Assembly: GCA_017464475.1 (NCBI GenBank)
Contig: JAFTZQ010000012.1
Location: 1-32,230 of the forward strand
Length of the DNA: 32,230 nucleotides
Reading direction: 5' to 3'
Source of the DNA: Paludibacteraceae bacterium
GTDB lineage: Bacteria; Bacteroidota; Bacteroidia; Bacteroidales; Paludibacteraceae
The position numbers and the translations under genes are program-made. The notes under the pieces were generated by a model, which saw only the letters and a program-made list of their open reading frames with translations, had not been told where the DNA came from and ran no database searches. Shown piece after piece: positions 567 through 31,162 of the stretch (positions are counted from its first letter, which is position 1; each line of letters opens with the position of its first letter).

Positions 567-1517
567 ATGAAAATAGCTATCATAGGAGCAGGGAGTGTGG
601 GGACGAACCTGCACCACGCTTTTGAACTCAAAGGAATCAAGACCGAACTCATACACGGAAGACCGCTGACAGCCCCAAAGACGCCAAAACCCCTCTCCGG
701 ATTGTTCTACGGACAGCCACTGGCTGCCCGATCGAGCAGAGCTCTTCACCCGCTCAAGGGAGAGGGAATTGTAGATGGGGGAGGAAACGAGCCTGCGGTA
801 AATGACCAAATGGTAAATGGTTTTGATGTGTATATCTACGCCATCGCGGATCAGGCGTTGCGGGAAGTGGTGAGTGTGATTCACGCGCCCAAAGCCCTTC
901 ATTTGCATACCTCCGGGACGATGCCGATAGACGTTTTCGGTGAGGACAAACCGCATGCAGGAATCCTGTATTTCTTCCAGAGCTTCAGCCGCGATGTGCT
1001 GATTGACGACTGGAGCGGAATCCCTTGTTTCATTTCGGGACGCAACATAGACGACATTGCGGCGATCTATTCGTTGGCTCAGACTCTGACGAGCCGCATC
1101 TACGAAGCGAACCAGCATGACCGCGAGCGGTTGCATATAGCGGGTGTTTTTGCGAACAATTACACGAACCTGATGTACCGTATTGCCGCAGATATACTCA
1201 AAGATACGCAGATACCTTTTGAGGCACTCTTGCCGCTGATTGACAATACCGCTGCGAAAGTGCATAAGATGGCTCCGAAGGACGCCCAGACCGGTCCTGC
1301 GCAGCGCGGCGACGAGGCGGTGATGGGGCACCATGTGGAGGTGCTAAAAGAAGCAAAACCCCACCCGGCCTCCCCACAAGGGGAGGGGGAAAGGCCTATA
1401 GAGGGGGGAAAACCCAGGGGTGATGTCTTTAGTGCGGAAGAGATGTGCGAAGTGTATCAAGCGCTCGGAGCGTTAATCGAGAAAAAGCATATTCATCCAA
1501 AGCCGAAAGAGGAATAG
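567..1517 (+). CDS. Rossmann-like and DUF2520 domain protein
   Basis: The N-terminus MKIAIIGAGSVGTNL is a GxGxxG nucleotide-binding (NADP-type) Rossmann fold. The C-terminal half, including VFANNYTNLMY and LLPLIDNTAAKVH, matches the DUF2520 helical domain found with it in Bacteroidota. The reaction is unknown. At 316 residues it is longer than I expect (about 260), and the excess is repeat DNA read in frame: a GC-rich palindromic element at codons 41-68, an AAATG-type array at codons 79-86 (NDQMVNG), and a second palindromic element at about codons 264-283 (KPHPASPQGEGE). All three interrupt loops. The last 89 nt overlap the 3' end of mutY on the other strand. A clear promoter (497-529) lies upstream. 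The family call is firm; whether the enlarged protein is fully functional is not known. Confidence 0.85.
   Translation: MKIAIIGAGSVGTNLHHAFELKGIKTELIHGRPLTAPKTPKPLSGLFYGQPLAARSSRALHPLKGEGIVDGGGNEPAVNDQMVNGFDVYIYAIADQALREVVSVIHAPKALHLHTSGTMPIDVFGEDKPHAGILYFFQSFSRDVLIDDWSGIPCFISGRNIDDIAAIYSLAQTLTSRIYEANQHDRERLHIAGVFANNYTNLMYRIAADILKDTQIPFEALLPLIDNTAAKVHKMAPKDAQTGPAQRGDEAVMGHHVEVLKEAKPHPASPQGEGERPIEGGKPRGDVFSAEEMCEVYQALGALIEKKHIHPKPKEE
688..770. repeat. GC-rich palindromic element (family 1), copy inside DUF2520 gene
   Basis: The ends AACCCCTCTCCGG (688-700) and CTCAAGGGAGAGGG (753-766) match the two halves of the family-1 element at 30684-30706 in inverse orientation. About 50 bp of other sequence lies between the halves, as if a second insertion were nested in the element. 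The copy is translated in frame. Confidence 0.65.
801..825. repeat. AAATG-type tandem array inside DUF2520 gene
   Basis: Units TAAATGA, CCAAATG and GTAAATG repeat with a 7-bp period and encode NDQMVNG. The same peptide-coding array occurs in the S9 peptidase gene near 10440-10468 (NDQMVND). Confidence 0.65.
1356..1415. repeat. GC-rich palindromic element (family 1), second copy in DUF2520 gene
   Basis: AAACCCCACCC is followed by TCCCC (1371-1375) and GGGGA (1380-1384) around a 4-nt centre, flanked by GGCCT and AGGCC. It shares its left end with the copy at 30652 in mutA. Translated in frame as KPHPASPQGEGE. Confidence 0.7.
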
Positions 1518-2535
1518 CTATCGTGCCCTCAATCTGCGGTAACTCATTCACCTTATGAATAATAAAACGCGCGTGAAGACGCTGGTGGGAGAGGGTGTGG
1601 GTACATTCATAGACCGCGTTGCTGTAGGACCGCTTCGCTGTAAGACCGGCTTTGCCTGTAGGACCGCCTGCGGCTGTAGGATCATTGTTTAGTTCCTCGC
1701 AGGGAAACTCATAGAGGTGGTACCAGATGTCTTTCGGATTCTCGCGACGGTGGATTAAAGTATAAACTTCTGACGGCTGATGGCTGACGGCTGACGGCTT
1801 CAAATAGATATGGTAATCGAACCATCGGTCGCGCACTTTGGGTCGCGGTTTGCGGACGGGCAGTAAGTCTGCCGTTCCATGTGCATAACCCAGACAGAAT
1901 TCGGACAGAGGACAGGTTGCGCATGCGTCGCCTAAAACGGGCGTGCAGTAGAGCGCACCAAACTCCATGATTGCCGAATTGAAGAGCCGCGGGTTCTCGC
2001 GGTCCAGCAGTTTCTCTATCTCTTTGTGGAACAATTTCTTACCCGCCGAAGTATCGAAGGGTTCGTCTATGTCCAGCAGCCGCGCCACGACGCGATATAC
2101 ATTGCCGTCCATGGCGGGATAGGGCAGGTTGTACGCGAACGAAGCAATCGCTCCTGCCGTGTAGTCGCCTATGCCCGGCAAGGATCGGATTTCCTCAAAC
2201 GTCCGCGGAAAAAGACTGCTATCGCCCGTTGCAGGCGAAGCCTTTTCTACAATCTGTTGCGCCGCTTTGTGCAGGTTTCGCGCCCGGCTGTAGTAACCCA
2301 AGCCTTGCCATTCGCGCAAGACCTCCGCTTCGTCGGCTGCCGCCAAGTCCTCCACGGTACGCCAACGCGCCAGAAAACGGCGGTAGTAATCGAGCCCCTG
2401 CGCAACCCGCGTCTGCTGGAGGATGATTTCGCTCAACCAGATCGCATAAGGGTCCTCCGTTTCCCTCCACGGCAGGTTCCGGCGGTTCACTTCATACCAA
2501 GCGTATAAATGGCTATATATGAGCTGTTTAGACAT
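1429..2535 (-). CDS. mutY: A/G-specific adenine glycosylase MutY
   Basis: It removes adenine mispaired with 8-oxoguanine. Visible landmarks in order: WLSEIILQQTRV with the catalytic Glu, the helix-hairpin-helix LPGIGDYTAGAIASFAY, AMDGNVYRVVARL with the catalytic Asp, a Cys cluster, and a NUDIX-like C-terminal domain with THTLSHQRLHARF, which reads 8-oxoG. The Cys spacing is C-x7-C-x2-C-x5-C, one residue longer than the usual x6. The C-terminal domain carries two repeat-derived insertions: SAVSHQPSE (about residues 246-256) from a TGACGGC array, and a Gly/Ala/Lys-rich stretch (about 282-306) from a 16-18-bp array. I chose the Met at 2535, because the upstream in-frame Met (2565) lies in AAATG-type repeat sequence. 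The 3' end overlaps DUF2520. Confidence 0.93.
   Translation of the reverse strand: MSKQLIYSHLYAWYEVNRRNLPWRETEDPYAIWLSEIILQQTRVAQGLDYYRRFLARWRTVEDLAAADEAEVLREWQGLGYYSRARNLHKAAQQIVEKASPATGDSSLFPRTFEEIRSLPGIGDYTAGAIASFAYNLPYPAMDGNVYRVVARLLDIDEPFDTSAGKKLFHKEIEKLLDRENPRLFNSAIMEFGALYCTPVLGDACATCPLSEFCLGYAHGTADLLPVRKPRPKVRDRWFDYHIYLKPSAVSHQPSEVYTLIHRRENPKDIWYHLYEFPCEELNNDPTAAGGPTGKAGLTAKRSYSNAVYECTHTLSHQRLHARFIIHKVNELPQIEGTIAIPLSALDEYAFSRLTLRALDTLRTSLPH
1619..1690. repeat. 16-18-bp tandem array inside mutY
   Basis: Four units start with CTGTAGGACCG or CTGTAAGACCG or CTGTAGGATC, spaced 16-18 bp apart. On the minus strand they are read in frame within the NUDIX-like domain of MutY, adding about 24 residues. 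Confidence 0.7.
1770..1800. repeat. TGACGGC heptamer array inside mutY
   Basis: Units TGACGGC, TGATGGC, TGACGGC, TGACGGC follow each other with a period of 7. Read on the minus strand they encode KPSAVSHQPSE within MutY. Related arrays lie at 5820-5850, 6148-6176 and 16068-16094. Confidence 0.8.
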
Positions 2536-2544
2536 AAATTCAGT

Positions 2545-2577
2545 TACAATTTGGTCATTTAGCATTTACAATTTGAA
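2545..2577. repeat. AAATG/AATTG-type array in the mutY leader
   Basis: On the minus strand the unit AAATTGTAA appears twice around AAATG motifs, immediately upstream of the mutY start. It adds an in-frame upstream Met (2565) that probably is not used. Confidence 0.5.
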
Positions 2578-2586
2578 AAAATCGGC

Positions 2587-2619
2587 ACAAAAATACAAAA
2601 AAATTTGCACATGTCCAAA
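2587..2619 (-). promoter_or_regulatory. Promoter of mutY
   Basis: On the minus strand TTTG (2619-2616), 20 nt and TATTTTTGT (2595-2587) fit the Bacteroidota promoter. It interleaves with the HU promoter: its -33 box lies in the spacer of the divergent promoter. Confidence 0.6.
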
Positions 2620-2636
2620 AAAATATGTACCTTTGC
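2604..2636 (+). promoter_or_regulatory. Promoter of the HU operon
   Basis: TTTG (2604-2607), 20 nt and TACCTTTGC (2628-2636) are a perfect match to the Bacteroidota consensus. The HU start codon follows 55 nt downstream, and RNase G is probably read from the same promoter. Confidence 0.85.
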
Positions 2637-2691
2637 ACGCTTTTTCGGATTTTTTGGATCCGCAAGACAGGAAAAATATAACGAACATAAT

Positions 2692-2982
2692 ATGACAAAA
2701 GCAGAATTAATCAACGAAATCGCCATTAGCACCGGTTATGACAAACGTACAATCGGTTTGATCGTAGAGGGTGTTATTGACAATCTGAAAGGCTCGATGA
2801 TCAAGGGCGAGCCTGTTTACCTGCGCGGTTTTGGTAGTTTTACCCTGAAGACCCGCAAAGCCAAAGTAGCACGTAACATCCGTGCAAAATCCACAGTAGA
2901 AGTACCGGAGCACTCGATTCCGTATTTTAAACCCGCGAATGAGTTCAAGGATCAGGTACGCGACGTGAAGATAAAAAAATAA
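2692..2982 (+). CDS. HU family DNA-binding protein
   Basis: This 96-residue protein, starting MTKAELINEIAISTGYDK, has the HU/IHF fold: two N-terminal helices, then the beta arms with LRGFGSFTLKTRKAK, ending in the usual FKPANEFKD box. It would dimerise, bend DNA and compact the nucleoid. The start at 2692 gives the canonical N-terminus; the in-frame upstream Met at 2605 would add 29 unrelated residues and lies inside the promoter. It is followed by a 29-residue protein and RNase G, an order I recall from other Bacteroidota. Confidence 0.95.
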   Translation: MTKAELINEIAISTGYDKRTIGLIVEGVIDNLKGSMIKGEPVYLRGFGSFTLKTRKAKVARNIRAKSTVEVPEHSIPYFKPANEFKDQVRDVKIKK

Positions 2983-3014
2983 CATTCGTATAACAATATT
3001 TAAATCAAACAATT

Positions 3015-3104: not shown

Positions 3105-3121
3105 TTGACGATCGTCATTCA

Positions 3122-3180: not shown

Positions 3181-3200
3181 TTTAAACACCCTAATTTAGT

Positions 3201-4807: not shown

Positions 4808-4811
4808 CGTC

Positions 4812-5325: not shown

Positions 5326-5344
5326 AATCTTGAATCTTTTTCTC

Positions 5345-5370
5345 CTCCCTTGAGGGGAGGTCGGGTGGGG
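5345..5370. repeat. GC-rich palindromic element (family 1), intergenic copy
   Basis: CTCCCTTGAGGGGAG forms the palindromic core, followed by GTCGGGTGGGGTT. It begins right after the thioesterase stop codon when read on the minus strand, as does the copy at 10898-10929 after the SDR stop. Confidence 0.85.
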
Positions 5371-6135
5371 TTATTGTATTGTTATCTTGGCGGAGCAAGA
5401 GGTCTCTCCGGCTTCGTTCTTCTGCTGGTATTGCACGCCGTCCGGCGTCAGAAGGTAGCATGTCTGCAGCTTCTCGCCGAGCATGGCTTCTTTCTGATAG
5501 TTGATGTCCAGCCGCACGGTCTTGCCGTAGTAGTTTGGCAGGTACGCGTCCGTCATGGCTTGCAGGTAACGGCAGGAGTTGCAATGCCCGTTGTAGTCGA
5601 TGTCCGAATAGGCCACTTTGTGCGTCTCGCAGCCGGTGGGTTCAGGGATCGTGGTCATGCGCACGCGCGGCATCTCAATCACTTCGCCGTCCACGCAATC
5701 CGCGAACATCGGATCGTCGAAGAGGTTCACGATCTCGCGTTTCTCCAAGTCCAGCACAGCCCAGACACTCTTGCATTGCCCTATTAAGATCCATTCGTCC
5801 GAGGTCTGATTGTTGGCGTCTGACGGCTGATGGCTGATTTCTGACGGCTTCGCATAAATGCGGAAATCACGTGTGCTCAGCATGTGTGCGTTGCTCTCGA
5901 TCCATGTCTCGAAACGCACTCTCTGGCAATGCGTCGGCAGTTGGTACATCTCTACGGAGAGCCTCGTCAAGATCCATGTCAGCCCCCGCGGGTGCAATGC
6001 CGCGATGCCGAATCCCAAATCGTCCGCTACTGTCCCTGCCACTTCCAGCAGGTAGTTCTCCAGGTTGAACAGCCGCAACTTCTTCTCCCCGTCCACCTCC
6101 TGGTACTTAATCTCGTATTCGTAATTGTATTTCAT
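5371..6135 (-). CDS. Acyl-ACP thioesterase
   Basis: The 254-residue protein has the double hot-dog architecture of FatA-type acyl-ACP thioesterases (Pfam Acyl-ACP_TE), which release free fatty acids from acyl carrier protein. The first hot dog includes the stretch AALHPRGLTWILTRLSVEM. The second carries the active-site segment SDIDYNGHCNS with N182 and H184. Residues 96-108 (AKPSEISHQPSDA) come from a TGACGGC-type array that lengthens a loop in the first hot dog. A promoter (6219-6187, minus) lies upstream, and the leader holds another such array. The stop codon is followed directly by a family-1 palindromic element. Confidence 0.9.
   Translation of the reverse strand: MKYNYEYEIKYQEVDGEKKLRLFNLENYLLEVAGTVADDLGFGIAALHPRGLTWILTRLSVEMYQLPTHCQRVRFETWIESNAHMLSTRDFRIYAKPSEISHQPSDANNQTSDEWILIGQCKSVWAVLDLEKREIVNLFDDPMFADCVDGEVIEMPRVRMTTIPEPTGCETHKVAYSDIDYNGHCNSCRYLQAMTDAYLPNYYGKTVRLDINYQKEAMLGEKLQTCYLLTPDGVQYQQKNEAGETSCSAKITIQ
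5820..5850. repeat. TGACGGC heptamer array inside the thioesterase gene
   Basis: Units TGACGGC, TGATGGC, TGATTTC, TGACGGC with period 7. Read on the minus strand they encode KPSEISHQPSD. The peptide core SEISHQPS is close to that of the mutY copy (SAVSHQPS). Confidence 0.8.
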
Positions 6136-6219: not shown

Positions 6220-6244
6220 TTATACGACTTTTTCTTCCTATTTA

Positions 6245-6277
6245 TTTGCGTATATCAATTATTTTATGTAATTTTGC
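6245..6277 (+). promoter_or_regulatory. Promoter of the KilA-N gene
   Basis: TTTG (6245-6248), 20 nt and TAATTTTGC (6269-6277). The KilA-N start codon follows at 6339. Confidence 0.8.
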
Positions 6278-6338
6278 GAGCAAAATTGAAACGTATATGC
6301 GTACAACAGGTACGAAGCGGTCGAATGAATAGATAAAA

Positions 6339-8643: not shown

Positions 8644-10862
8644 TTCAGCCAGCGGTCGAGCCAGTTGCGGAACTCGCGCTGCCAGAGGATGCCGTTCTGG
8701 GGCTTCAAAACCCAGTGGTTCTCGTCCGGGAAGATAAGGAGTTCGGCAGGCACGCCGCGCATCTTGGCTGCATCGAAGGCTGCCATCGCCTGGTTGGCGA
8801 GGATGCGGTAGTCTTTCTCGCCATGGATACAGAGGATCGGCGTGTCCCATTTGTCCACAAAGCGATGCGGGCTGTTGGCAAACGTACGCTGGGCAATTTT
8901 GTTGTCTTTCTCCCAGTATGCACCGCCCATATCCCAGTTGGCGAACCATTTCTCTTCGGTCTCCAAGTATTGCATCTCCAGATTGAAGATTCCGTCGTGA
9001 GCGATGAAGGCTTTGAACCGTCCGTCGTGGTGACCTGCGATCCAATAGACGCTGAAACCTCCGAAAGAAGCACCGACGCAACCCAGATGGTCTTTGTCCA
9101 CATACGGCTCCTTGCAGAACTCATCGATCGCCGTGAAATAATCCTTCATGCACTGACCTCCGTAGTCGCCGGAGATCTCTTCGTTCCACGCCTTGCCGAA
9201 TCCCGGCAGACCGCGTCTGTTCGGCGCAACAATGATATAGTCGCCGGCGGACATCATCATAAAGTTCCAACGGAAGGACCAGAACTGGCTCACCGGACTT
9301 TGCGGACCGCCCTCGCAATAGAGGATCGTCGGATATTTCTTCGCGGGGTCGAAATGCGGCGGATAAATGATCCATGTCAGCATATCTTTCCCGTCTGTGG
9401 TCTTCTGCCAGCGCGGCTCAACGGTCGAACGCTCGATCTGCGAATAAATATTATCGTTCTCGTGGGTCAGCTGCTCCAGAAGCTGGTTGTACGTGTCAAA
9501 CGGCTGGTCGTAATAGATCTCCGTGTGCGCCATCTGCTCATGGTCTTTGCGCAGCCATTCACGGATGTCCAGATGGTAAATCTCGTTCGCCTGACGCATG
9601 GAGTGACCGAGCAGATAAGCCTGGTAATCCGTCACATCGCCCAGACCCAGATCCCACTGACCGTCCGTCAGTTTGGAAGTCCAGCCGTCGAGGGTGACGC
9701 GGTAGAGCTGGACGGTCGCTTGTTTGCAGGCGGTGAAGACCAGCGAGGTGTCGTCAATCCATTTGTATTCATCGACGTTGGTGTCCATGGAACGGCTCAA
9801 GAAACGCTTCTCGCCTGTCTCCATATTGAGCACCATCAGCCGGTTCTCGTCGCTCTCATAGCCGTCGCGCGCCATGGATTGCCATGCAATCCACTTGCCG
9901 TCCGGCGAATAGGACGGGTTGGTGTCGTAGCCTTTGTTCTCCTCGGTGATGTTCTTATGCGTGCGCGTACGTAAATCAAATAGGTATATGTCGCTGTTGG
10001 TGGAAACGGCGTATTCCAGTCCGGTTTTCTTGCGGCAGGTGTATGCGATCTCCTCGTTGTTCGGGTTCCATGCCAGCTGCTCAATGCCGCCGAAAGGCTT
10101 CATCGGGCTCTCAAAAGCGGTGCCTTCGAGGATGTTATACCCTTCGCCAAGTTTGGCGGATTTCATCCGCTCGCCCTCACCGAAATACTCGGTCTCCAAC
10201 TCGCATACGAAAGGCTGCGGCGCGGTTTCTGTCCACTCGTCCCAGTGTTTGTACATCAGATCCTCGTGCATGTGACCCGTTGCCAGCGGCAGATCCGGAT
10301 ATTTGTCCGCGGTCGAAGGAACGGTCTTCACTTGCTTGACCAGAATGATTTTGTCGCGCATAGGGGAGAGCAAGAAACCCTCAATGTCATTTATCATTTC
10401 TTTATTCACTCCGTTCATACGATCTGCTTCGCCGTATGGGTCATTTACCATTTGGTCATTTGGCATGACTTCCACTTCCTCTTTGTCGCGGCGGATAAAG
10501 AGTTTGCCGCCTTTGAGGTAAGCGAGCGCACCGCTGTTGCCAAACCAAGCCGGTTCGTAACCGACGAACTCATCGACCACCGCCATGTTCTCAAACGGAT
10601 TGCAGATGCGGATCCATGTCGTGCTCCGGTTCTCCTCCACGGAATAATAACTCACGGTGTACGCCAGCAGACCTGTCTCTACATCGCTCTTGACGCTGCC
10701 GATGCGTCCCATCGCCCACAGTCCTTCGGGCGTCAGACGACCGCCTTCAATGGTGATCTGCGGTTTCGTGATCGGAGCTTTCTGCTCCGCTGTATTCTCT
10801 TTCGCGCAACTCGCGCCAAGGATTGTCACGGCTGCCATAATAATTACCTTCCAGGTTTTCAT
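8634..10862 (-). CDS. S9 family prolyl-oligopeptidase-type peptidase, lipoprotein
   Basis: A lipobox (LGASC, C19) predicts a surface or periplasmic lipoprotein. The N-terminal two thirds form a beta-propeller with PD40-type repeats, such as NPSYSPDGKWIAW. The C-terminal part is an alpha/beta hydrolase with the triad S599 (GASFGGFS), D684 (HGEKDYRI) and H716 (DENHWV). Such enzymes (dipeptidyl or acylaminoacyl peptidases) cleave short peptides for nutrition. Residues about 132-160 include NDQMVND and MINDIEG, encoded by AAATG-type arrays, an insertion in the propeller. The last two codons and the stop are from a heptamer array. It lies 68 nt after the SDR gene, separated by a family-1 element, and is probably in the same transcript. 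Confidence 0.93.
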   Translation of the reverse strand: MKTWKVIIMAAVTILGASCAKENTAEQKAPITKPQITIEGGRLTPEGLWAMGRIGSVKSDVETGLLAYTVSYYSVEENRSTTWIRICNPFENMAVVDEFVGYEPAWFGNSGALAYLKGGKLFIRRDKEEVEVMPNDQMVNDPYGEADRMNGVNKEMINDIEGFLLSPMRDKIILVKQVKTVPSTADKYPDLPLATGHMHEDLMYKHWDEWTETAPQPFVCELETEYFGEGERMKSAKLGEGYNILEGTAFESPMKPFGGIEQLAWNPNNEEIAYTCRKKTGLEYAVSTNSDIYLFDLRTRTHKNITEENKGYDTNPSYSPDGKWIAWQSMARDGYESDENRLMVLNMETGEKRFLSRSMDTNVDEYKWIDDTSLVFTACKQATVQLYRVTLDGWTSKLTDGQWDLGLGDVTDYQAYLLGHSMRQANEIYHLDIREWLRKDHEQMAHTEIYYDQPFDTYNQLLEQLTHENDNIYSQIERSTVEPRWQKTTDGKDMLTWIIYPPHFDPAKKYPTILYCEGGPQSPVSQFWSFRWNFMMMSAGDYIIVAPNRRGLPGFGKAWNEEISGDYGGQCMKDYFTAIDEFCKEPYVDKDHLGCVGASFGGFSVYWIAGHHDGRFKAFIAHDGIFNLEMQYLETEEKWFANWDMGGAYWEKDNKIAQRTFANSPHRFVDKWDTPILCIHGEKDYRILANQAMAAFDAAKMRGVPAELLIFPDENHWVLKPQNGILWQREFRNWLDRWLKEN
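10384..10470. repeat. AAATG-type arrays inside the S9 peptidase gene
   Basis: Two AAATG-type arrays (10384-10405 and 10438-10470) flank about 30 bp. On the minus strand the right array reads with units AATGACC, AAATGGT and AAATGAC and encodes NDQMVND, a near copy of the array in the DUF2520 gene. The left array encodes MINDIEG. Confidence 0.65.
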
Positions 10863-10897
10863 AATAATGGTATAATATTCTTTTCTTTTTTTTTTAC

Positions 10898-10929
10898 CCT
10901 CCCTTGAGGGGAGGGAAGGGTGGGGTTAT
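10898..10929. repeat. GC-rich palindromic element (family 1), intergenic copy
   Basis: CCCTCCCTTGAGGGGAGGG is the palindromic core, followed by AAGGGTGGGGTT. It separates the SDR stop codon from the S9 peptidase start and could weakly terminate or stabilise RNA there. Confidence 0.88.
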
Positions 10930-10930
10930 T

Positions 10931-11710
10931 TTACACACACGTATATCCTCCGTCCACGGGGAGTGCCACGCCGGTGACGTAGCGCGAAGCGTCAGCTGCA
11001 AGGAAGCAAACGGCGCTGTCCAGTTCGCCCTCATGTCCGTAACGCTCCATCGGAATGACGGTTTTGGCATAGTTAGCGAAATAGTCGCTCTCCAAGGTCT
11101 CTTTGGTCAGCGGAGTAATGAAATAGCCCGGACAGATGGCATTGACGGTAATACCGTATTTGCCCCATTCGGCAGCCAGCGCACGGGTCATGTTGACCAC
11201 ACCGCCTTTGGCTGCATGATACGGAGAAGCAGGCGCAATCTTATTGCCCACCAGACCGTACATGGACGCGATATTGATAATACGTCCGTACTTATTCGGG
11301 ATCATCGCCTTCTTCGCTACGGCGCGCGCTACGCGGAACGAACCGAAGAGGTCAATCTGCATCTCGTTCTCAAACTGGGCATCGGTGATGTCCTCTGCGG
11401 GTGCCACTGCTCCTGTACCGGCATTGTTGACCACAATATCGATCTTGCCGAAATGGGCGAGCGCTTCGTCCACCATTTTCTCCACCGCTTCGGTGCTCGT
11501 AATGTCGCATTGGATCGGCAGCACCTCTACGCCGAAGGCTTGCTCGATCTCGTTTTTCACTTCCACCAGTTTCTCATACCGCCGTGCGATAATAACCAGT
11601 TTGCTACCTCTGGCTGCAAGGGCTTTTGCCATCTGCACGCCTAATCCTCCGGAGCAGCCGGTGACCAGTGCCACCCGTCCGCTCAAATCAAAAATGTCAT
11701 TTGTCATCAT
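10931..11710 (-). CDS. Short-chain dehydrogenase/reductase (SDR)
   Basis: This 259-residue classical SDR has the cofactor loop TGCSGGLG (residues 17-24), NNAG (95-98), and the catalytic S149 with Y164-x3-K168 (SPYHAAKGG). It resembles gluconate 5-dehydrogenase and 3-oxoacyl-ACP reductase types; the substrate cannot be read from the sequence. The C-terminal VTGVALPVDGGYTCV is typical of the family. Two adjacent Met codons allow starts at 11710 or 11707. A promoter lies at 11764-11732 on the minus strand, and the S9 peptidase follows downstream, so the pair may form an operon. Confidence 0.9.
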   Translation of the reverse strand: MMTNDIFDLSGRVALVTGCSGGLGVQMAKALAARGSKLVIIARRYEKLVEVKNEIEQAFGVEVLPIQCDITSTEAVEKMVDEALAHFGKIDIVVNNAGTGAVAPAEDITDAQFENEMQIDLFGSFRVARAVAKKAMIPNKYGRIINIASMYGLVGNKIAPASPYHAAKGGVVNMTRALAAEWGKYGITVNAICPGYFITPLTKETLESDYFANYAKTVIPMERYGHEGELDSAVCFLAADASRYVTGVALPVDGGYTCV

Positions 11711-11764: not shown

Positions 11765-11791
11765 TAAAGTAGCAAATTTATTCAATAATAA

Positions 11792-11824
11792 TTTGCATAT
11801 ATGCAAAATTTGTTGTACCTTTGC
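11792..11824 (+). promoter_or_regulatory. Promoter of the DUF1016 gene
   Basis: TTTG (11792-11795), 20 nt and TACCTTTGC (11816-11824), a perfect consensus. The start codon at 11847 follows after 22 nt. Confidence 0.85.
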
Positions 11825-11846
11825 AGCCGGAAATGTACATCACACC

Positions 11847-12979: not shown

Positions 12980-13022
12980 TCCCTCTCCGAGCGGTGCTTT
13001 CATGCACTCAGGGAAAGGAGAA
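12980..13022. repeat. Probable diverged family-1 element
   Basis: CCCTCTCCGAGCGG is followed by a small stem GTGC/GCAC and then CTCAGGGAAAGGAG. The ends resemble the split family-1 copy at 688-770. It begins just after the DUF1016 stop codon. Confidence 0.5.
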
Positions 13023-15140: not shown

Positions 15141-15462
15141 TATTCCTTTAGGTTAGATAGTGGCGCGAGAGTGGCTTGAGAGTGGCTTTTTACTTATTCT
15201 TAACAAAAGGAACTTTTTAAGTTCGTTTCAAGATCGCTTCAATCGGCAGAGGTCGCGCTGACCCTGCGCTGCTCTTGGGATGAGTTTGGAGTAATACACG
15301 AATCTTAAAAATCGGCAATTTTGGAGGGCGGAAAATGGCGATTTCGGGTGGTCTATCGTCGGGTACGTGTCTCGTACGTGTCTCGTAAGTGGGTAGTAAG
15401 CCTGCCGTGCGTGTCCAAATCTTAATAATCGGTAATAATAATTTACGCAAAAGGAAAAAATA
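15141..15462. other. Intergenic stretch with several short repeats
   Basis: No gene is supported here. It holds a two-copy GAGAGTGGCTT repeat (about 15168-15189), a small stem GAACTT/AAGTTC (15210-15224), an 11-bp tandem array (15357-15400) and two similar blocks ATCTTAAAAATCGGCAAT and ATCTTAATAATCGGTAAT, near 15302 and 15419, that bracket the array. The promoter of the MBL gene begins at 15463. Confidence 0.6.
15357..15400. repeat. 11-bp tandem array in intergenic DNA
   Basis: Units TCGGGTACGTG, TCTCGTACGTG and TCTCGTAAGTG, and the weaker GGTAGTAAGCC, follow each other with a period of 11. The period equals that of the unrelated array at 160-210. Confidence 0.75.
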
Positions 15463-15495
15463 TTTGCACATGTCGATTTTTTGTTGTAATTTTGC
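15463..15495 (+). promoter_or_regulatory. Promoter of the MBL RNA-processing gene
   Basis: TTTG (15463-15466), 20 nt and TAATTTTGC (15487-15495). The start codon at 15515 follows after 19 nt. Confidence 0.85.
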
Positions 15496-15514
15496 AGCGT
15501 AAAATGCGTGAATT

Positions 15515-16984
15515 ATGAAAATTCAGTTCTTAGGCGCGGCACGCGAAGTGACCGGAAGCAAACATCTGATCACAACCGATTCCGGGCATACCATCCTGCT
15601 GGATTGCGGTATGTACCAAGGTAAAGGAGCAGAGACAGACGCGGACAACAGAGACTTGGGTTTCGACCCGGAGAAGTTGGATTGTATCATCCTCTCTCAT
15701 GCCCATATCGACCATTCGGGACTCATTCCGTATGTGTTCAAGAAGGGTTTCCGCGGCGACATCTATTGCACGCACGCCACGCGCGACCTGTGCGCAATCA
15801 TGCTGGCGGACACGGCTTTTATCCAAGAGCAGGACGTCAAGACGTATAACAAAAAGATCAACCGCCAGCACCCGCACAAGGAGAAGGGCAAGAACTATTT
15901 TCTGGAGCCGCTCTATACCCAGCAGGACGTGGACCGGGTGATGAAGCATTTCGTTTGCTACGACTACGACCGGCGTTTCCGCGTCTTTGACGACGTGCTG
16001 CTGACCTTCACCAATTCGGGGCACATGTTGGGCGGCGCGATCTGTTCGCTGGAAGTCTATGAAAGCGATCAGCCGTCAGAAATCAGCCGTCAGAATGATG
16101 GTTCAAAGCGCTGGAAACGCTTGGCGTACACCGGCGATATAGGACGCGCACACAGCCATATTCTGCCGAGTCCGATGCTCTTTCCACAATGCGATTACCT
16201 GATCTGCGAATCGACGTACGGTGACCGTTTGCACGACGAAGAGATTGTGACCGAGCAGCAGTTGTTGGGCATCGTGAAGGACACTTGCGAATACCGCGGA
16301 GGCAAGCTGCTGATTCCTTCTTTCTCCGTCGGGCGAACGCAGGAGATCGTCTATGTGCTGAACAAACTCTACAACGAGCAATACCTGTCGAGCCGTATTC
16401 CGGTCTATGTCGATTCGCCGCTCTCGACGAACGCCACCCATATCTTCCGCATGTACCCGCAATACCTCTCGGACGAGGTGCGCGACACGATGCAGTTTGA
16501 CGATGACCCGTTCGGGTTCAACACCTTGCGGTACATCACCGACGTGCGGGAATCGAAGAAGCTGAACACCGACGACAAGCCGGCGATCATCATTTCCGCC
16601 AGCGGTATGTTGGAGGCAGGACGAATCAAACACCATGTGGCGAACCATATCTCCGACCCGCGGTGCACCATCCTGATAGTCGGTTATTGCGAACCGACCA
16701 CGCTCGGCGCACGCATTCAGGAACCCGGACTCAAATGGATTTCCATCTTCGGCTTGGACCGCAAGATCAAAGCGCAGATCACCAAGTTGGAAGGCTTCTC
16801 CGGTCATGGCGATTACAAAGAAATGATTGATTACCTCACCCGCAGCCTGCAGGTGGACCAAGTGCAGCGCGTCTTTGTGGTCCATGGCGAGCAGACGGCG
16901 GCGGAGACCTACAAAGGACATTTGCACGACGCCGGATTCCGACATATAGAAGTGCCGGAGAAAGGCGAAACCGTAACTCTTTAA
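15515..16984 (+). CDS. Metallo-beta-lactamase/beta-CASP RNA-processing exonuclease
   Basis: The metal-binding motif SHAHIDHSG (H62, H64, D66, H67), NSGHMLGGA (H170), YTGDIGRAH and the C-terminal VVHGEQ belong to the MBL/beta-CASP family, related to the archaeal and eukaryotic CPSF73-type nucleases. Members act on RNA; the bacterial ones are usually annotated as RNA-processing exonucleases. The beta-CASP insert lies between about residues 230 and 380, with PSFSVGRTQEIVY. Residues 185-194 (DQPSEISRQN) come from a TGACGGC-type array read in the opposite orientation, placed just after the conserved GGAICSLEVYE strand. A promoter lies at 15463-15495. The secreted-protein gene follows after 27 nt and may be co-transcribed. 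Confidence 0.93.
   Translation: MKIQFLGAAREVTGSKHLITTDSGHTILLDCGMYQGKGAETDADNRDLGFDPEKLDCIILSHAHIDHSGLIPYVFKKGFRGDIYCTHATRDLCAIMLADTAFIQEQDVKTYNKKINRQHPHKEKGKNYFLEPLYTQQDVDRVMKHFVCYDYDRRFRVFDDVLLTFTNSGHMLGGAICSLEVYESDQPSEISRQNDGSKRWKRLAYTGDIGRAHSHILPSPMLFPQCDYLICESTYGDRLHDEEIVTEQQLLGIVKDTCEYRGGKLLIPSFSVGRTQEIVYVLNKLYNEQYLSSRIPVYVDSPLSTNATHIFRMYPQYLSDEVRDTMQFDDDPFGFNTLRYITDVRESKKLNTDDKPAIIISASGMLEAGRIKHHVANHISDPRCTILIVGYCEPTTLGARIQEPGLKWISIFGLDRKIKAQITKLEGFSGHGDYKEMIDYLTRSLQVDQVQRVFVVHGEQTAAETYKGHLHDAGFRHIEVPEKGETVTL
16068..16094. repeat. TGACGGC-type array (inverse orientation) inside the MBL gene
   Basis: ATCAGCCGTCAGAA followed by ATCAGCCGTCAGAA gives two 14-bp units, each two heptamers. 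It encodes DQPSEISRQN, in the same frame choice (SEIS) as the thioesterase copy although it is carried on the other genomic strand. Confidence 0.78.
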
Positions 16985-18661: not shown

Positions 18662-18719
18662 CAAAAGTGCTGCTTTTTGACCTCCTTTTGCTAAAAAAAC
18701 GCAAAATATAGCATAAATA

Positions 18720-18752
18720 TTTGCTCATATCAAAAAAAAGCAGTACCTTTGC
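18720..18752 (+). promoter_or_regulatory. Promoter of tRNA-Pro
   Basis: TTTG (18720-18723), 20 nt and TACCTTTGC (18744-18752). The tRNA begins 75 nt downstream, leaving a long leader. Confidence 0.85.
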
Positions 18753-18768
18753 ACTCGCTTTTGTGCGG

Positions 18769-18959: not shown

Positions 18960-19619
18960 GTGCGCTACAAAGCTATTTTTATAGATATTGACGACACCCT
19001 GCTGGATTACATCCCTTGTTGCCGGGAAGCTTTTGACGCCGCGATGCGAAATCTTGCACCCTCTCTTGAGGAGAGGGAAGGGGAGAGGTTGTTCCATCTC
19101 TTTTTCGAGATCAGCGGTCGGCTTTTCTCGGAAGCCAAGCATGGCAAACATACGATTGCGGAGGTGATGGACCTCTATCCGAAGGAGTTCATTGCGGCGA
19201 TCGACTACCCGGAGTCGGCGGTAGATCCCTTCAAGCATGCTTTTCGTGCCGCATGGGGCGAGACGCATACCTTGGTGCCGGAGGCGAAAGAGATGCTGGA
19301 TATATTGCATGCCAAAGGTTACCGGCTTTTTGCTGCGTCTAATAGTTTCGGACATCTGCAGCGCCGCCGGCTGGAGAGAGCAGGTATTCTGCCGTATTTC
19401 GAAGATACTTATATCTCCATGGACATCGGTTATGACAAACCTGACATCCGTTTCTTCCAAGAAGCGCTCCACCGCTGCGGCTTGCAACCGAACGAAGTGC
19501 TGATGATCGGCGACTCCATGACCACCGACATCCTCGGCGCACAAGCCGCCGGAATAGAAGCACTCTTCTTCGACAGACGGAACAACGCGTCACTTTTGGA
19601 ACTAATAAAAGAACTATGA
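18960..19619 (+). CDS. HAD family hydrolase, YjjG-like phosphatase
   Basis: The four HAD motifs are present: FIDIDDT (nucleophile D9, D11), AASNSF, DKPDIRF and GDSMTTDI. The helical cap between residues 15 and 95 makes it a subclass I HAD, similar to YjjG-type nucleotidases. The substrate is not certain. Translation starts at GTG (18960), inside AAATTG-type repeats; no in-frame ATG precedes the conserved N-terminus. Residues 33-43 (APSLEEREGER) derive from a family-1 palindromic element inserted in the cap. The 3' end overlaps plsC by ATGA. It is the first gene of the probable operon HAD-plsC-tolC-hlyD-ABC-ABC. Confidence 0.9.
   Translation: MRYKAIFIDIDDTLLDYIPCCREAFDAAMRNLAPSLEEREGERLFHLFFEISGRLFSEAKHGKHTIAEVMDLYPKEFIAAIDYPESAVDPFKHAFRAAWGETHTLVPEAKEMLDILHAKGYRLFAASNSFGHLQRRRLERAGILPYFEDTYISMDIGYDKPDIRFFQEALHRCGLQPNEVLMIGDSMTTDILGAQAAGIEALFFDRRNNASLLELIKEL
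19056..19090. repeat. GC-rich palindromic element (family 1) inside the HAD gene
   Basis: CCCTCTCTTGAGGAGAGGG is the palindromic core, followed by AAGGGGAGAGG. Read in frame as APSLEEREGER; the same frame is used in the Lpd copy (APSLEERAGGE). Confidence 0.9.
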
Positions 19620-25171: not shown

Positions 25172-25188
25172 GTTTTTAGCCACTTTAA

Positions 25189-25221
25189 TTTGCGTATGTC
25201 ATAAAAAAGTAGTATCTTTGC
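25189..25221 (+). promoter_or_regulatory. Promoter of the C_GCAxxG gene
   Basis: TTTG (25189-25192), 20 nt and TATCTTTGC (25213-25221). The start codon at 25240 follows after 18 nt. Confidence 0.85.
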
Positions 25222-25239
25222 AGCCCAAATACTAATACG

Positions 25240-25764
25240 ATGACAAACGAAGAGATCGAATCACGGGCTGCCCGCGCCGTGGATTTATTCAAACAAGGCT
25301 TTAACTGCTCCCAGGCGGTCTTTGCTTCCTGCGCAGATTTATATGGTATTACGGACGAATCGCTTGCCCTGCGTTTGGCTGCTTCTTTCGGTGGCGGAAT
25401 GGGCAGAATGAGGCTCGTCTGCGGTGCCGCGTCAGGTATGTTCATGCTTGCCGGCTTGCACAATGGTTCTGCTACGCCCCATGATAACACAGGCAAAAAG
25501 GAGAATTATGCCTTCGTCCAGCAACTCGCAGGCGATTTCAAATCTCGCTACGGTTCTCTCATCTGCGCCGAACTCTTAGGTCTTGTTCCCAAGAATACAA
25601 CACCCTCCCTTGAGGGGAGGGAAGGGGTGGGGTTCTCTCCCAAACCCGAGGAGCGCACCCCGGAATATTACCAAAAACGTCCCTGTTCCGAGATGATCGC
25701 AGAAGCGGTACGAATCTATCTCCACGCAATAAATGATAAAATGAGAAAATGTGTAAATGACTAA
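25240..25764 (+). CDS. C_GCAxxG_C_C family (redox-active Cys) protein
   Basis: The family signature is four spaced Cys motifs. Here FNCSQAV (C23), RLVCGAASGMF (C61), LICAELLG (C109) and RPCSEMI (C149) fit it. Members are thought to be redox or metal-linked, but no reaction is established. Residues about 120-135 (TTPSLEGREGVGFSP), between the last two Cys, derive from a family-1 palindromic element. The C-terminus (INDKMRKCVND) is coded by an AAATG-type array that runs across the stop codon up to the lpd start. Lpd follows after 8 nt, so the two are probably co-transcribed. Confidence 0.9.
   Translation: MTNEEIESRAARAVDLFKQGFNCSQAVFASCADLYGITDESLALRLAASFGGGMGRMRLVCGAASGMFMLAGLHNGSATPHDNTGKKENYAFVQQLAGDFKSRYGSLICAELLGLVPKNTTPSLEGREGVGFSPKPEERTPEYYQKRPCSEMIAEAVRIYLHAINDKMRKCVND
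25600..25636. repeat. GC-rich palindromic element (family 1) inside the C_GCAxxG gene
   Basis: CCCTCCCTTGAGGGGAGGG is followed by AAGGGGTGGGGTT. It is almost identical to the intergenic copy at 10898-10929 but is here translated as PSLEGREGVGF. Confidence 0.92.
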
Positions 25765-25776
25765 ATGGTAAAATGA
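25732..25776. repeat. AAATG-type octamer array across the C_GCAxxG stop and the lpd start
   Basis: Five units of about 8 bp, ending in AAATG each time (ATAAAATG, AGAAAATG, TGTAAATG, ACTAAATG, GTAAAATG). The last unit supplies the ATG start of lpd, and the fourth holds the TGA stop of the upstream gene. Confidence 0.8.
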
Positions 25777-27170
25777 ATAGATATTTTTTAGCCATCATAG
25801 GCGGTGGACCTGCAGGTTATACCGCTGCGGAGAAGGCTTCCAAAGCCGGAAAAGACGTCATTCTCTTTGAGCAAAACGCCCTCGGTGGCACCTGTCTCAA
25901 CGTGGGATGTATTCCTACCAAATCGCTCCTCTACGGCGCGAAACAGTATTACAATGCCACTCACGCGCAGAAATACGGTGTCTCCGCGGAGAACGTTACC
26001 TTCGATTTTGCCGCCATGCAGAAACGCAAGACCATCGTAGTCCGCAAACTCGTAGCGGGTATCAAAGCCCGTCTCAACAACGACCATTGTACCGTGGTCA
26101 ACGGCGCAGCAACCGTCCTTCCTCCCTTGGCTCCCTCTCTTGAGGAGAGGGCGGGGGGAGAGGTTTGTGGGGTTTTGGTTTCATGCGGAGACCAAACCTA
26201 CGAAGCGGAGAACCTCATGATATGTACCGGCTCAACGAACTTCGTGCCGCCCATTCCAGGCATCAAGGACAATCCTGCCATTTGGGATTCGACCGACGCA
26301 CTCGCAGCGACCGAACTGCCGGCCTCCATCATCATCGTGGGTGGCGGCGTGATCGGAATGGAGTTCGCGACCCTCTATCACGAACTGGGTGTGCCGGTGA
26401 CGGTTATCGAAGCCATGCCTTCGATCCTGCCGAACCTCGATCCCGAAGTGGTACAAATCCTCCTCGATAAATACCGCAAAGCCGGCATCCAAATCCTCAC
26501 TTCCACCAAAGTGGAATCCATCGACGGAAACACAGTTTCCATTTCTAGTTCTTCTAGTTCGACTAGTTTAACTAGTTTGACTAGTGACAAGATTTTAGTG
26601 AGTGTTGGTCGTCGCGCGAACCTGCAAGGCTTGGAGGCTTTAGACGGACTCGAATTCAACCGCGGCGCGATCGTCGTGGATGAGTTCTGCAAGACTAACC
26701 TTCCGAATGTCTATGCCTGCGGCGACGTCACGGGTAAGATCATGTTGGCGCATGTTGCTTCGCGTCAAGCCGAAGTGGCTGTCGGACGCATGCTCAAAGA
26801 GATTCCGCTCCAGCGTATCGCGTACAACGCTATCCCGTCTGTGGTCTATACCAACCCCGAAATAGCGTCCGTCGGAATTACGGAGCAACAAGCGGAATCG
26901 ATGTCTATCCCCGTAGAGGTGCACAAACTCCCCATGACCTACTCCGGACGATTTATGGCGGAAAACGAAGGCGAGACCGGGCTGTGCAAACTGATTTTGG
27001 ATGCCAAGAACCACTCTGTCCTTGGCGTACATTGTATCGGCAATCCCTGCTCGGAGTTCATCGCTGCGGCTTCGTTCGCCGTACGTATGGGTTACACCGC
27101 GGCGGAGTTCCGCCAAGTCGTCTTCCCGCATCCTACAGTAAGCGAGATCTTACACGAAACAATCGTTTGA
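25773..27170 (+). CDS. lpd: Dihydrolipoyl dehydrogenase
   Basis: The FAD-binding GGGPAGYTAAEKA and redox-active GGTCLNVGCIPTK (C41, C46), an NAD-binding GGGVIGMEFATLY, the second FAD site VYACGDVTGKIMLAH and the C-terminal FPHPTVSEI (His-Glu pair) identify the E3 component that reoxidises dihydrolipoamide for 2-oxoacid dehydrogenases or the glycine cleavage system. No E1/E2 genes are adjacent. Two repeat insertions are read in frame: APSLEERAGGE at residues about 121-131 (family-1 element) and a Ser/Thr-rich stretch at about 257-270 (ACTAG nonamer array). Apart from these it has the normal length and motifs. The start ATG lies in an AAATG array 8 nt after the previous gene. Confidence 0.95.
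   Translation: MNRYFLAIIGGGPAGYTAAEKASKAGKDVILFEQNALGGTCLNVGCIPTKSLLYGAKQYYNATHAQKYGVSAENVTFDFAAMQKRKTIVVRKLVAGIKARLNNDHCTVVNGAATVLPPLAPSLEERAGGEVCGVLVSCGDQTYEAENLMICTGSTNFVPPIPGIKDNPAIWDSTDALAATELPASIIIVGGGVIGMEFATLYHELGVPVTVIEAMPSILPNLDPEVVQILLDKYRKAGIQILTSTKVESIDGNTVSISSSSSSTSLTSLTSDKILVSVGRRANLQGLEALDGLEFNRGAIVVDEFCKTNLPNVYACGDVTGKIMLAHVASRQAEVAVGRMLKEIPLQRIAYNAIPSVVYTNPEIASVGITEQQAESMSIPVEVHKLPMTYSGRFMAENEGETGLCKLILDAKNHSVLGVHCIGNPCSEFIAAASFAVRMGYTAAEFRQVVFPHPTVSEILHETIV
26127..26168. repeat. GC-rich palindromic element (family 1) inside lpd
   Basis: CCCTCTCTTGAGGAGAGGG is followed by CGGGGGGAGAGG. Core identical to the HAD copy (19056-19090) and read in the same frame. Confidence 0.9.
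26542..26587. repeat. ACTAG-type nonamer array inside lpd
   Basis: Five units of 9 bp: TTCTAGTTC twice, GACTAGTTT, AACTAGTTT and GACTAGTGA. Because the period is three codons it reads as a Ser/Thr/Leu run in Lpd. The matching array outside genes is at 29144-29206. Confidence 0.88.
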
Positions 27171-27208
27171 GCAACGCGAAATAAGAACTAATCTAATAAC
27201 ATCATATC

Positions 27209-28999: not shown

Positions 29000-29046
29000 A
29001 CCCTTCCTGAGTGACTAAAAATCACTCGCACTACGCCCCAAACGGC

Positions 29047-29084
29047 AAAAACGGCAGATTTTTTGAAGAATTTGCCGTTTTTTC
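29047..29084 (+). terminator. Terminator after the endonuclease gene
   Basis: ACGGCA (29051-29056) pairs with TGCCGT (29073-29078), extended by flanking A and T runs, then TTTTTTCTT. It precedes the mutA promoter directly. Confidence 0.75.
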
Positions 29085-29115
29085 TTGCATATATGCGAAA
29101 CTTGTTGTAACTTTG
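29084..29115 (+). promoter_or_regulatory. Promoter of the mutA operon
   Basis: CTTG (29084-29087), 20 nt and TAACTTTG (29108-29115). One mismatch in the -33 box; the -33 extension CATATATG fits the other promoters here. The start codon is about 106 nt downstream, beyond an ACTAG array. Confidence 0.7.
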
Positions 29116-29143
29116 TGCGTTTTTTGAGAAATCGAAGATTTCC

Positions 29144-29206
29144 CCTAGATAAACTAGTTCAACTAGAAAAACTAGATAAACTGGAAAAACTATTATATAC
29201 TATCTA
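29144..29206. repeat. ACTAG-type nonamer array in the mutA leader
   Basis: About six units of 9 bp (CCTAGATAA, ACTAGTTCA, ACTAGAAAA, ACTAGATAA, ACTGGAAAA, ACTATTATA) fill the leader between the mutA promoter and start codon. Confidence 0.85.
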
Positions 29207-29221
29207 AAAAACACAATCAGC

Positions 29222-31162
29222 ATGGCAGAAAACAAAGTAAACATGTTGGCGGATTTTGCGCCGGTCTCCACCGAGACTTGGAAAGCCAAAATCATCGCTG
29301 ACCTGAAAGGTGCCGATTTCGAAAAGAAATTGGTATGGCGCACGCCGGAAGGATTCAACGTGCAGCCGTTCTACCGCCGTGAGGACCTGAAAGGGCTCAA
29401 GACCACCGTCTCCGCCCCCGGTCAGTTCCCCTACGTCCGCGGTACGCGTACTAACAACGACTGGGCTATCCGTCAGAACATCTGCGCCTGCAAGAACGCA
29501 CGCAAGGCGAACGAGAAAGCCCTCGAGGTGCTCAACAAGGGTATCAACTCCCTCGGTTTTTGTCTGGACAAAGAGAAGTTGACCTACCATTTCATCAAGA
29601 CGCTGCTCAACGGTATCGCCGCTGACTGCATCGCCATCAATTTCTCCATCTGCGCCTGCGCTGCGCCGAAGCTCGCGAACATCCTCGTGCGCTACTACGG
29701 CAGAATGGGCTACGATGTGAAGCACATGGTAGGCTCCATCAATGTGGACCCGATCAAGAACATGCTCGTGAAGGGCAAACCGCTGACCCGCGAGCAGGTA
29801 TCGGCTAAGATCGCCGAGGTGGTGAAAGCCGCCAAAGCGCTGCCGGGTTACCGCGTAGTGGGGGTTAACAGCGTTGTGCTCAATAACTCCGGCGCGTACG
29901 CTACGCAGGAGCTCGCTTACGCCCTCGCTTGGGGTGCTGAGTACATGACGATGCTCACCGAAGCCGGTGTGCCTAACTACCGCGCTGCCAACGCTATCCG
30001 TTTCAACATGGGTATCGGCGGCAACTACTTCATGGAGCTGGCTAAGTTCCGTGCGGCGCGTCTGCTGTGGGCAAAGATCGTAGAGGCATACAAAGCGCCG
30101 ATCTTCACCACCGCCCTCCGCAATGCGGCTAAGATGAACGTCAGTGCCGAGACCAGCCGTTTCAACATGACTATCTTCGACGCGTATGTGAACCTCCTCC
30201 GCACGCAGACCGAGACGATGTCTGCTGCTCTGGCAGGCGTGGATGAGATCACCGTCACGCCGTTCGACATCACCTATGAGCGTCCGACGGATTTCTCCGA
30301 GCGTATCGCCCGCAACCAGCAGCTGCTTCTCAAAGAGGAGGCGCACTTCGACAAGATTGTGGACCCTGCTGCCGGTTCGTATTACCTCGAGAACCTGACC
30401 GCCTCCATCGCTGCCGAGGCTTGGAAGCAGTTCCTTGCTATCCAGGAGCAGGGCGGCATGTACCGGATGGTTTCCGAAGGCAAGGTACAGGAGCACATGG
30501 CGGCAAACCTCAAAGCGCGTCTCAACGACGTAGCCAAACGCAAAGAGGTGCTGCTCGGTTCCAACCAGTTCCCGAACTTCACCGAGAAAGCCGCTAAGAA
30601 GATCAAAGCCGACGCCGGTGCTTGCTCAAGTATCTGTACGTGCAAATCGAAACCCCACCCAGCCTCCAACTGTTCCCTCTCCCTTGAGGGGAGAGCCGGA
30701 GAGGGGTTATTGCCCACCTTGCCAGTTGCCCGTGCTGCCGAGGAGTTCGAACAACTCCGTTTGGAGACCGAGGGTGCCAAGAAACAGCCCGTTGCGTTCA
30801 TGCTCACCATCGGCAACCTCGCTATGCGTATCGCGCGTGCGCAGTTCAGTTGTAACTTCCTCGCGTGCGCAGGATACAAGGTCATTGACAACAACGGCTT
30901 TGCCACTATCGCCGAAGGTATCAAGGCGGCTCGCAAGGCGAAAGCGGACATCATCGTCCTCTGTTCGTCCGATGACGAGTACGCTACCCTCGCGCCGAAG
31001 GCATGGAAGAAGCTCCAGAACGCCAAAGAGATCTTCATCGTTGCCGGTGCTCCGGCTTGCATGGAGGATCTCCAGAAGCTCGGTATCACCAACTTCATCC
31101 ACGTCCGTTGCAACGTCCTCGACACCCTCAAAGGACTTAACTCGCAGTTACTGAAGAAATAA
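29222..31162 (+). CDS. mutA: Methylmalonyl-CoA mutase small subunit
   Basis: MutA is the catalytically inactive partner of the B12-dependent mutase that interconverts succinyl-CoA and methylmalonyl-CoA in the propionate pathway. The N-terminal part has WKAKIIADLKGADFEKKLVW and the barrel motif ETSRFNMTIFDAYVNLLRT; VDPAAGSYYLENLT marks the end of the barrel. The B12-like domain at the C-terminus is degenerate, as usual for MutA. Residues about 477-497 (KPHPASNCSLSLEGRAGEGL) come from a family-1 element in the linker between barrel and C-terminal domain. Three ICxC motifs (C88/C90, C144/C146, C472/C474) are unusual; the first two share 13 identical bases. mutB follows after a 519-nt gap that holds the GxxExxY gene. 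Confidence 0.95.
   Translation: MAENKVNMLADFAPVSTETWKAKIIADLKGADFEKKLVWRTPEGFNVQPFYRREDLKGLKTTVSAPGQFPYVRGTRTNNDWAIRQNICACKNARKANEKALEVLNKGINSLGFCLDKEKLTYHFIKTLLNGIAADCIAINFSICACAAPKLANILVRYYGRMGYDVKHMVGSINVDPIKNMLVKGKPLTREQVSAKIAEVVKAAKALPGYRVVGVNSVVLNNSGAYATQELAYALAWGAEYMTMLTEAGVPNYRAANAIRFNMGIGGNYFMELAKFRAARLLWAKIVEAYKAPIFTTALRNAAKMNVSAETSRFNMTIFDAYVNLLRTQTETMSAALAGVDEITVTPFDITYERPTDFSERIARNQQLLLKEEAHFDKIVDPAAGSYYLENLTASIAAEAWKQFLAIQEQGGMYRMVSEGKVQEHMAANLKARLNDVAKRKEVLLGSNQFPNFTEKAAKKIKADAGACSSICTCKSKPHPASNCSLSLEGRAGEGLLPTLPVARAAEEFEQLRLETEGAKKQPVAFMLTIGNLAMRIARAQFSCNFLACAGYKVIDNNGFATIAEGIKAARKAKADIIVLCSSDDEYATLAPKAWKKLQNAKEIFIVAGAPACMEDLQKLGITNFIHVRCNVLDTLKGLNSQLLKK
30652..30712. repeat. 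GC-rich palindromic element (family 1) inside mutA
   Basis: ACCCCACCC is followed by CTCCCTTGAGGGGAG and AGCCGGAGAGGGGTTA. This long copy carries both the CCCCACCC left end and the GGAGAGGGG right end seen separately in other copies, so it may be close to the full element. It is translated in frame. Confidence 0.85.

Follow-up and report, generated by a model that had tools for sequence, protein, structure and literature searches.

A short palindromic repeat with the anatomy of a purine-type intrastrand triplex, in frame inside and between genes of a Paludibacteraceae bacterium

The stretch of DNA analysed here, referred to as the window, is the 32,230-nucleotide contig JAFTZQ010000012.1 (assembly GCA_017464475.1) of a Paludibacteraceae bacterium, contig 31 in a genome of 1.9 Mb and 36 contigs (hereafter the host genome), and it carries copies of a short GC-rich palindromic element both between and inside its genes. 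A search of both strands of the window with the core CCCTCCCTTGAGGGGAGGG, allowing up to 3 mismatches, gave 8 matches at 6 places (5343, 10897, 19059, 25603, 26133, and 30677; two of these places match on both strands) against 0.02 expected, and none of 100 shuffled windows reached 8 core matches. Copies at 688 and 1357 were recognized from the sequence together with the repeat pairs I5, I8, and I25. An earlier inspection of the letters alone (the sequence-only reading) had listed nine places, of which eight hold the element; the ninth, 12980-13022, put forward as a weak copy, was rejected, no succession of arm, arm, and tail being found on reading it.

The gene names DUF2520, HAD, C_GCAxxG, and MutA are those of the sequence-only reading, and an NCBIfam scan of the DUF2520 open reading frame (ORF; 567-1517, plus strand) gave no match. 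Two copies lie in frame in this ORF, both on the minus strand: a long form of about 80 bp at 688..767, read in the sequence, and, near the 3′ end, a short form with a longer arm and a TTGT loop at 1357..1390, covered by repeat pairs I5 and I8. Orthologues were taken from G034, a genome of the same genus of which 1.885 Mb served as the reference. Its DUF2520 orthologue carries a short form at the site of the long one, with 15 amino acids (aa) less, and another repeat at the 1357..1390 site. Two plus-strand copies are intergenic, and both adjoin the 3′ ends of opposite-strand genes: a 30-bp form at 5343..5372 overlaps the stop codon of the minus-strand ORF 5371-6135, and a short form at 10897..10927 lies 3 bp past the end of the minus-strand ORF 10931-11710.

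Further plus-strand copies lie in frame in four ORFs of the same strand. The HAD-like ORF (18960-19619) contains a CTCTC/GAGAG variant at 19059..19090 encoding PSLEEREGE, and its G034 orthologue (68% identical) is without 9 aa at this site. In the C_GCAxxG-type ORF (25240-25764), a short form at 25603..25634 encodes PSLEGREGVG, the orthologues in L116 and G034 having 5 aa fewer there. Lpd (25773-27170) holds a CTCTC/GAGAG variant at 26133..26165 encoding PSLEERAGGE, a peptide absent from three relatives, from G034, and from structure 1ebd. Finally, the MutA site (30652-30712, in ORF 29222-31162) consists of a partial reversed copy made up of the tail and the start of the arm (30651..30667, minus strand, in frame, read from the alignment) beside a full copy, a CTCTCCC/GGGGAGAG variant at 30677..30708, and the MutA peptide is absent from this variable stretch in 21 distinct loci of relatives. 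The six copies described earlier as translated (two in DUF2520 and one each in HAD, C_GCAxxG, Lpd, and MutA) are all in frame in the sequence, and orthologues free of the peptide exist for the latter four genes; for DUF2520, G034 bears a form of the element at one site and a different repeat at the other.

The repeating unit, about 33 bp long, comprises a C-rich arm, a TTGA loop, and a G-rich arm, followed after a linker of 2 nt by a tail, also G-rich, in which the sequence of the second arm recurs as its mirror image, A or T being allowed opposite A. The common short form has 33 bp and reads TCCCTCCC-TTGA-GGGGAGGG-NN-GGGGTGGGG-TT, the tail being GGGGAGAGG or GGGGTGAGG in CTCTC/GAGAG variants and GAGAGGGG in CTCTCCC/GGGGAGAG variants. 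Further forms are one of 30 bp and a long one of about 78 bp, which joins both ends of the short form to an inner cassette; a long copy of 78 nt folds at -18.5 kcal/mol (z -3.6), and the terminal stem of the long form has a T-T mismatch. The element begins with TCCC or TCC and ends with GGTT, with a GTAG or CGTC tag at neither end, and inverted as well as tandem pairs of copies occur. The sequence-only reading had seen the palindrome but missed its mirror tail and the existence of a long form, and did not connect the element with the published class of intrastrand triplexes.

The mirror relation was evaluated on 103 copies taken from host-genome stretches. Stems of at least 6 pairs are present in 93 of the 103, and 77 of these 93 have an exact 6-base mirror; when tails were reassigned at random among the copies, the number averaged 46.6 and never exceeded 61. 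With cores of 7 bases, 57/74 copies agree with a mirror and 34/74 with a direct repeat. A pattern with both tail positions left free occurs in 45 of 395 genomes of a phylum sample, the host included, and the matches listed provided 112 distinct rows, which represent 42 of the 44 same-phylum genomes other than the host that have a match. Among these rows the tail base matches the arm in 107 of 112 (p = 8e-20), and the second free tail position is without exception occupied by A or T. With a pyrimidine arm, a complementary purine arm, and a mirror purine segment, the element has the architecture of the purine-type intrastrand triplex motif.

A motif of this kind, TM-ECO, has been described among potential intrastrand triplex elements (Holder et al., 2015, PMC4666352; Hoyne et al., cited there). 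In the pattern as published, the stems are 9 nt and the second loop 3 nt long, and its occurrence is reported for 262 proteobacterial genomes; triplex formation by TM-ECO oligonucleotides is supported by circular dichroism and nuclear magnetic resonance, and TM-ECO in E. coli K-12 MG1655 is always intergenic, with no tie to mobile elements found (PMC4666352). TM-ECO shares with the present element the succession of C-rich stem, short loop, G-rich stem, short loop, and mirror G-rich stem, as well as inverted pairs and a copy number that is very different between close relatives, whereas the present element has mostly 6-8-nt stems, a 2-nt linker, and most of its copies in genes. The strict TM-ECO pattern CCCTCNCCC N3-6 GGGNGAGGG N3 GGGNGAGGG does not describe the element, its stems having 6-8 pairs in 93/103 copies and its linker 2 nt in the common forms.

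The element is not an artefact of a mis-assembled contig, a concern attached to its first description, because it is genome-wide and abundant in five relatives. With one mismatch allowed, the core has 105 copies in the host genome, spread over many of the 36 contigs, and the reversed pattern, used as a control, has none. Of 36 other genus members, 19 have zero copies, five have 16, 27, 43, 47, and 62, and the rest have 1-8; such small counts carry no weight, since the reversed control in this search gave 0 to 6 per single genome. A related 29-base pattern was found in at least 112 stretches of genome contigs, and the 80 matches listed include Sphingomonas, Variovorax, Ramlibacter, Maricaulaceae, Methylovulum, Saprospiraceae, Ignavibacteriae, Armatimonadota, rumen Bacteroidales, and others. 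The rumen Bacteroidales records hold similar elements with GGTT ends, and one has a similar flank, which suggests a rumen-type Bacteroidales as the host. The rumen record RUG14447 and the host genome also have an apparently common site flank (L140 5586-5614, L058 2016), with the short versus the long form of the element.

Of the 103 host copies, 73 are each spanned by one in-frame G034 match. From these, 2 with a stop in the host frame, 1 antisense shadow (the window copy at 10897), 8 below 100 bits, and L060, which has no tail, were dropped, leaving 61 copies in 52 genes that are in frame with the G034 protein; the HAD copy, one of the 8 below 100 bits, was put back after a separate orthologue check, which brings the genic copies to 62. 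The remaining 41 consist of 30 without a spanning match (intergenic, or lacking an orthologue in the G034 DNA used) and 11 that were dropped. Between 2 and 4 copies occur together in each of six genes. Among the 103, none could be confirmed as breaking the frame; the one apparent frameshift, at L010, lies beside a stop codon and was judged from its flank to be probably an antisense shadow.

The genes concerned include many with conserved functions, as had been stated for the window. In an NCBIfam scan of 20 host ORFs, 19 of them from other contigs, 18 match at 1e-10 and nine reach the curated cut-off, namely HflX (four copies), glutamine-tRNA ligase, lysine-tRNA ligase, DnaE, MurF-alanine racemase, Dxs, ThiL, RlmD, and RecF (two copies). 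Nine others, some truncated at the end of the locus, match below the cut-off: PcrA, isoleucine-tRNA ligase, CCA nucleotidyltransferase, MalQ, DapB (three copies), flavorubredoxin, RsmD, GlgB, and a RapZ/AmgK-like protein. In Lpd and PcrA, the best match among solved structures shows a gap where the element lies; of the four HflX sites, two show such a gap, and the other two lie at or past the end of the structure alignment. The copies occupy mostly variable stretches, but the proposal that they always keep away from catalytic motifs is not supported as stated: the PcrA copy directly follows the conserved TFTNKAAREMKERI stretch, which we take to be a helicase motif. ORFs of at least 200 aa contain 80 of 98 host copies (86% for nearby random sites) and, in the cross-phylum test, 48 of 85 copies found elsewhere versus 89% of random sites, so that genic tolerance is not general.

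The 61 genic copies use the six phases 22, 17, 12, 6, 3, and 1 times. The loop TGA is present in 0/6 copies in the phase where TTGA gives a stop versus 49/55 elsewhere (p = 1.7e-5), and use of the remaining five phases is uneven (p = 7e-6); both the stop avoidance and the uneven use of open phases point to selection. Lengths tell a different part of the story. They fall within 30-34 bp in 95/103 copies, the other 8 or so being long or unparsed, and are exactly 33 or 30 bp in 34/41 copies not assigned to genes versus 52/62 genic ones (the genic class in the length and flank comparisons is 62 because these were made before L060 was dropped). The 30/33-bp length is therefore a property of the family, since copies not assigned to genes share it, and of the selected insertion frame suggested earlier, the lengths give no sign, whereas stop avoidance and phase use do suggest selection.

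The earlier assumption of an exact insertion is not supported in its original form by the comparison with relatives. Within 15 aa on each side of a copy, the net length change in 73 rows, a few of which are spurious, lies between -20 and +27 aa, and in MutA and Lpd the DNA alignment indicates that the element took the place of part of a variable stretch. For HflX, which has a match in 41/41 genomes, 30 loci were aligned, 29 of them from relatives: the G018 peptide equals the host peptide at one of the host's four sites, a diverged pair at another site is common to G021 and G002, at the first site G007 carries another stretch that may be element-like, and no element peptide was seen in the other 25 loci at the sites shown. 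Long and short forms are also exchanged at one and the same site, G002 having the long form where the host genome has the short one, and DUF2520 being the reverse case. Loops of G034 at element sites (L242-L341) often hold other repeats, for example NDKSQMSNDKSQMS or EELEELEELDTLDTL.

The flanks of the element are pyrimidine-rich, the preceding base being C or T in 92/94 copies. Thirteen copies are listed as common to the host and G034, one of them without a tail. In 12 copies common to both, the tail differs at 6/96 positions and the flanks at 467/2036 (p = 2.5e-5); the hairpin differs at 8/204, a figure that is biased because the core served to find the copies.

Taken together, these copies constitute a family of short repeats with purine-motif intrastrand-triplex anatomy, probably non-autonomous, scattered between and inside genes and probably filtered by selection. 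The C-rich arm would pair with the G-rich arm, and the mirror G-rich tail could fold back as a third strand, so that a triplex may form in the host organism. Copies sit in pyrimidine-rich surroundings with no clear target duplication, whether between or inside genes. A genic copy usually adds about 10-11 codons and keeps the frame, because the common forms have 30 or 33 bp and most phases are stop-free, and the element peptides are presumably translated. Selection on the protein may then retain copies in tolerant loops and in stop-free phases.

Several observations weigh against this reading. The tail has an A despite a G in the arm in 14 of 66 parsed host copies, and 18 copies were unparsed. 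For the published motif in vivo, dimethyl sulfate probing gave no protection and only a polymerase stop was seen in the assay (PMC4666352). In several genes, the copy replaces a loop, and no clear target duplication was found at 94 copies. By the boundary rule used, 8/62 genic copies have 31, 32, or 34 bp, in which case the flanks must compensate or the boundaries are off. In addition, the host genome is 71% complete, and among Y1_Tnp, reverse transcriptase, and IS110, no partner enzyme tracks the copy number.

With regard to how the copies arise, the explanation that fares best, although we would put it at somewhat below even, is structure-driven copying, in which the element would stall replication and be written into new places, or over repeats already there, by template switching or ectopic conversion from other copies, without a transposase. 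It would account for sites at which the element took over from a variable loop or from another repeat, for the lack of clear target duplication, the inverted and tandem pairs, the exchange of long and short forms, and the lower divergence of tails than of flanks in shared copies. However, the low tail divergence could also reflect a recent shared origin or selection on the fold.

A possible but more doubtful origin is that of a miniature inverted-repeat transposable element, in which a transposase would act in trans on the hairpin of about 78 bp as the unit that moves, and the short forms would be derived from it. The long form folds well, both of its ends are shared with the short form, and the copy number is patchy in the genus. 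However, no clear target duplication was seen at the 94 copies, long or unparsed copies make up only about 8/103, and the three enzyme families tried offer no partner. Both reverse transcriptase (10/41 genomes) and IS110 transposase (9/41 genomes) were rejected as drivers, each being absent from the host and G035 and failing to track the copy number.

Concerning the fold itself, the tail might serve a G-quadruplex with four G runs, or lie beside a simple hairpin, rather than provide a third strand. Copies of the GGGGAGGG-NN-GGGGTGGGG type do have four G runs, yet GAGAGGG copies with GWGAGG tails do not and still display the covariation between arm and tail, which makes this alternative rather unlikely.

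Much less probable still is a repetitive extragenic palindromic (REP) element moved by a REP-associated tyrosine transposase (RAYT). The REP elements of the GTAG and CGTC superfamilies are palindromes of 20-40 bp that form dimers, and some lie inside DNA repair and tRNA ligase genes in several species (PMC3733652), so that size, palindrome, dimers, and occasional genic position agree with those of the present element. In contrast, the latter has no GTAG or CGTC tag, no link to RAYT was found, and it has a third, mirror segment. The host genome (71% complete), G002, and G021 have no Y1_Tnp; the G034 match falls below the cut-off, and those of G018 and G035 lie at it. At E 0.001 Y1_Tnp is absent from 9 of 18 other pattern-bearing genomes, a count of gene presence only, in which adjacency to the element was not checked. 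As for the peptides being useful and selected for protein function, twelve copies are indeed kept at the same place in G034, but genic copies encode at least five different peptides from different phases, close relatives lack them, and the tail DNA is conserved too, which makes this view most improbable.

The likeness to Rickettsia palindromic elements drawn by the sequence-only reading, with a different family and host, is a fair one. Those elements are 105-146 bp long with terminal inverted repeats and resemble the present one in lying in frame inside conserved protein genes and also between genes (PMC2229807); they differ from it in sequence and host, the present element having a mirror tail and a length of 30-33 bp in its short forms and of about 78 bp in its long one. 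Triplex architecture, in-frame palindromes (Rickettsia), and intragenic REPs are thus each known, and in the literature searched (open-licence PMC papers) we found no description of this element or of its combined traits.

It is conceivable, though we advance this with reserve, that a triplex-type repeat with relatives in several phyla became a portable in-frame module in one genus, its DNA fold being kept in coding sequence, as the low tail divergence in the 12 shared copies would suggest. If so, structure-driven copying would be able, without any transposase, to place one and the same set of 10-11 codons in essential genes. The best-known in-frame palindromes are those of Rickettsia (PMC2229807), and the present genus offers dozens of in-frame cases. 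Many genus members are element-free, and empty, short, and long states of one site are available for comparison. In-frame palindromes also occur in Wolbachia. The spread of repeats of this kind, and the possibility that an unusual DNA structure is sufficient for it, can be tested directly in this genus, which provides a new setting for how repeats enter proteins without destroying them. For annotators, loops such as PSLEGREG or NPTPTLPSREG may stem from a DNA repeat.

The window contains other repeats as well. A second, CTGACGGCTGATGGCTGACGGC-like repeat lies in three ORFs (1768-1818, 5819-5868, and 16063-16095) and gives peptides such as AVSHQPSEV and EISHQPSDA. A third, AAATGACCAAATGGTAAATG-like, lies inside or at the start of three ORFs (799-824, 2536-2561, and 10442-10461), with NDQMVN-like peptides. 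Tandem 9-base CTAGTTCGA-like units occur at 26545-26583 and 29145-29192, the first within Lpd, where they encode a serine/threonine-rich stretch. Finally, eight similar ATTTGC...TAnnTTTGC stretches are found at 496-531, 2603-2638, 6244-6279, 11791-11826, 15462-15497, 18719-18754, 25188-25223, and 29083-29118; they resemble Bacteroidetes promoters, with an extra ATTTGC part.

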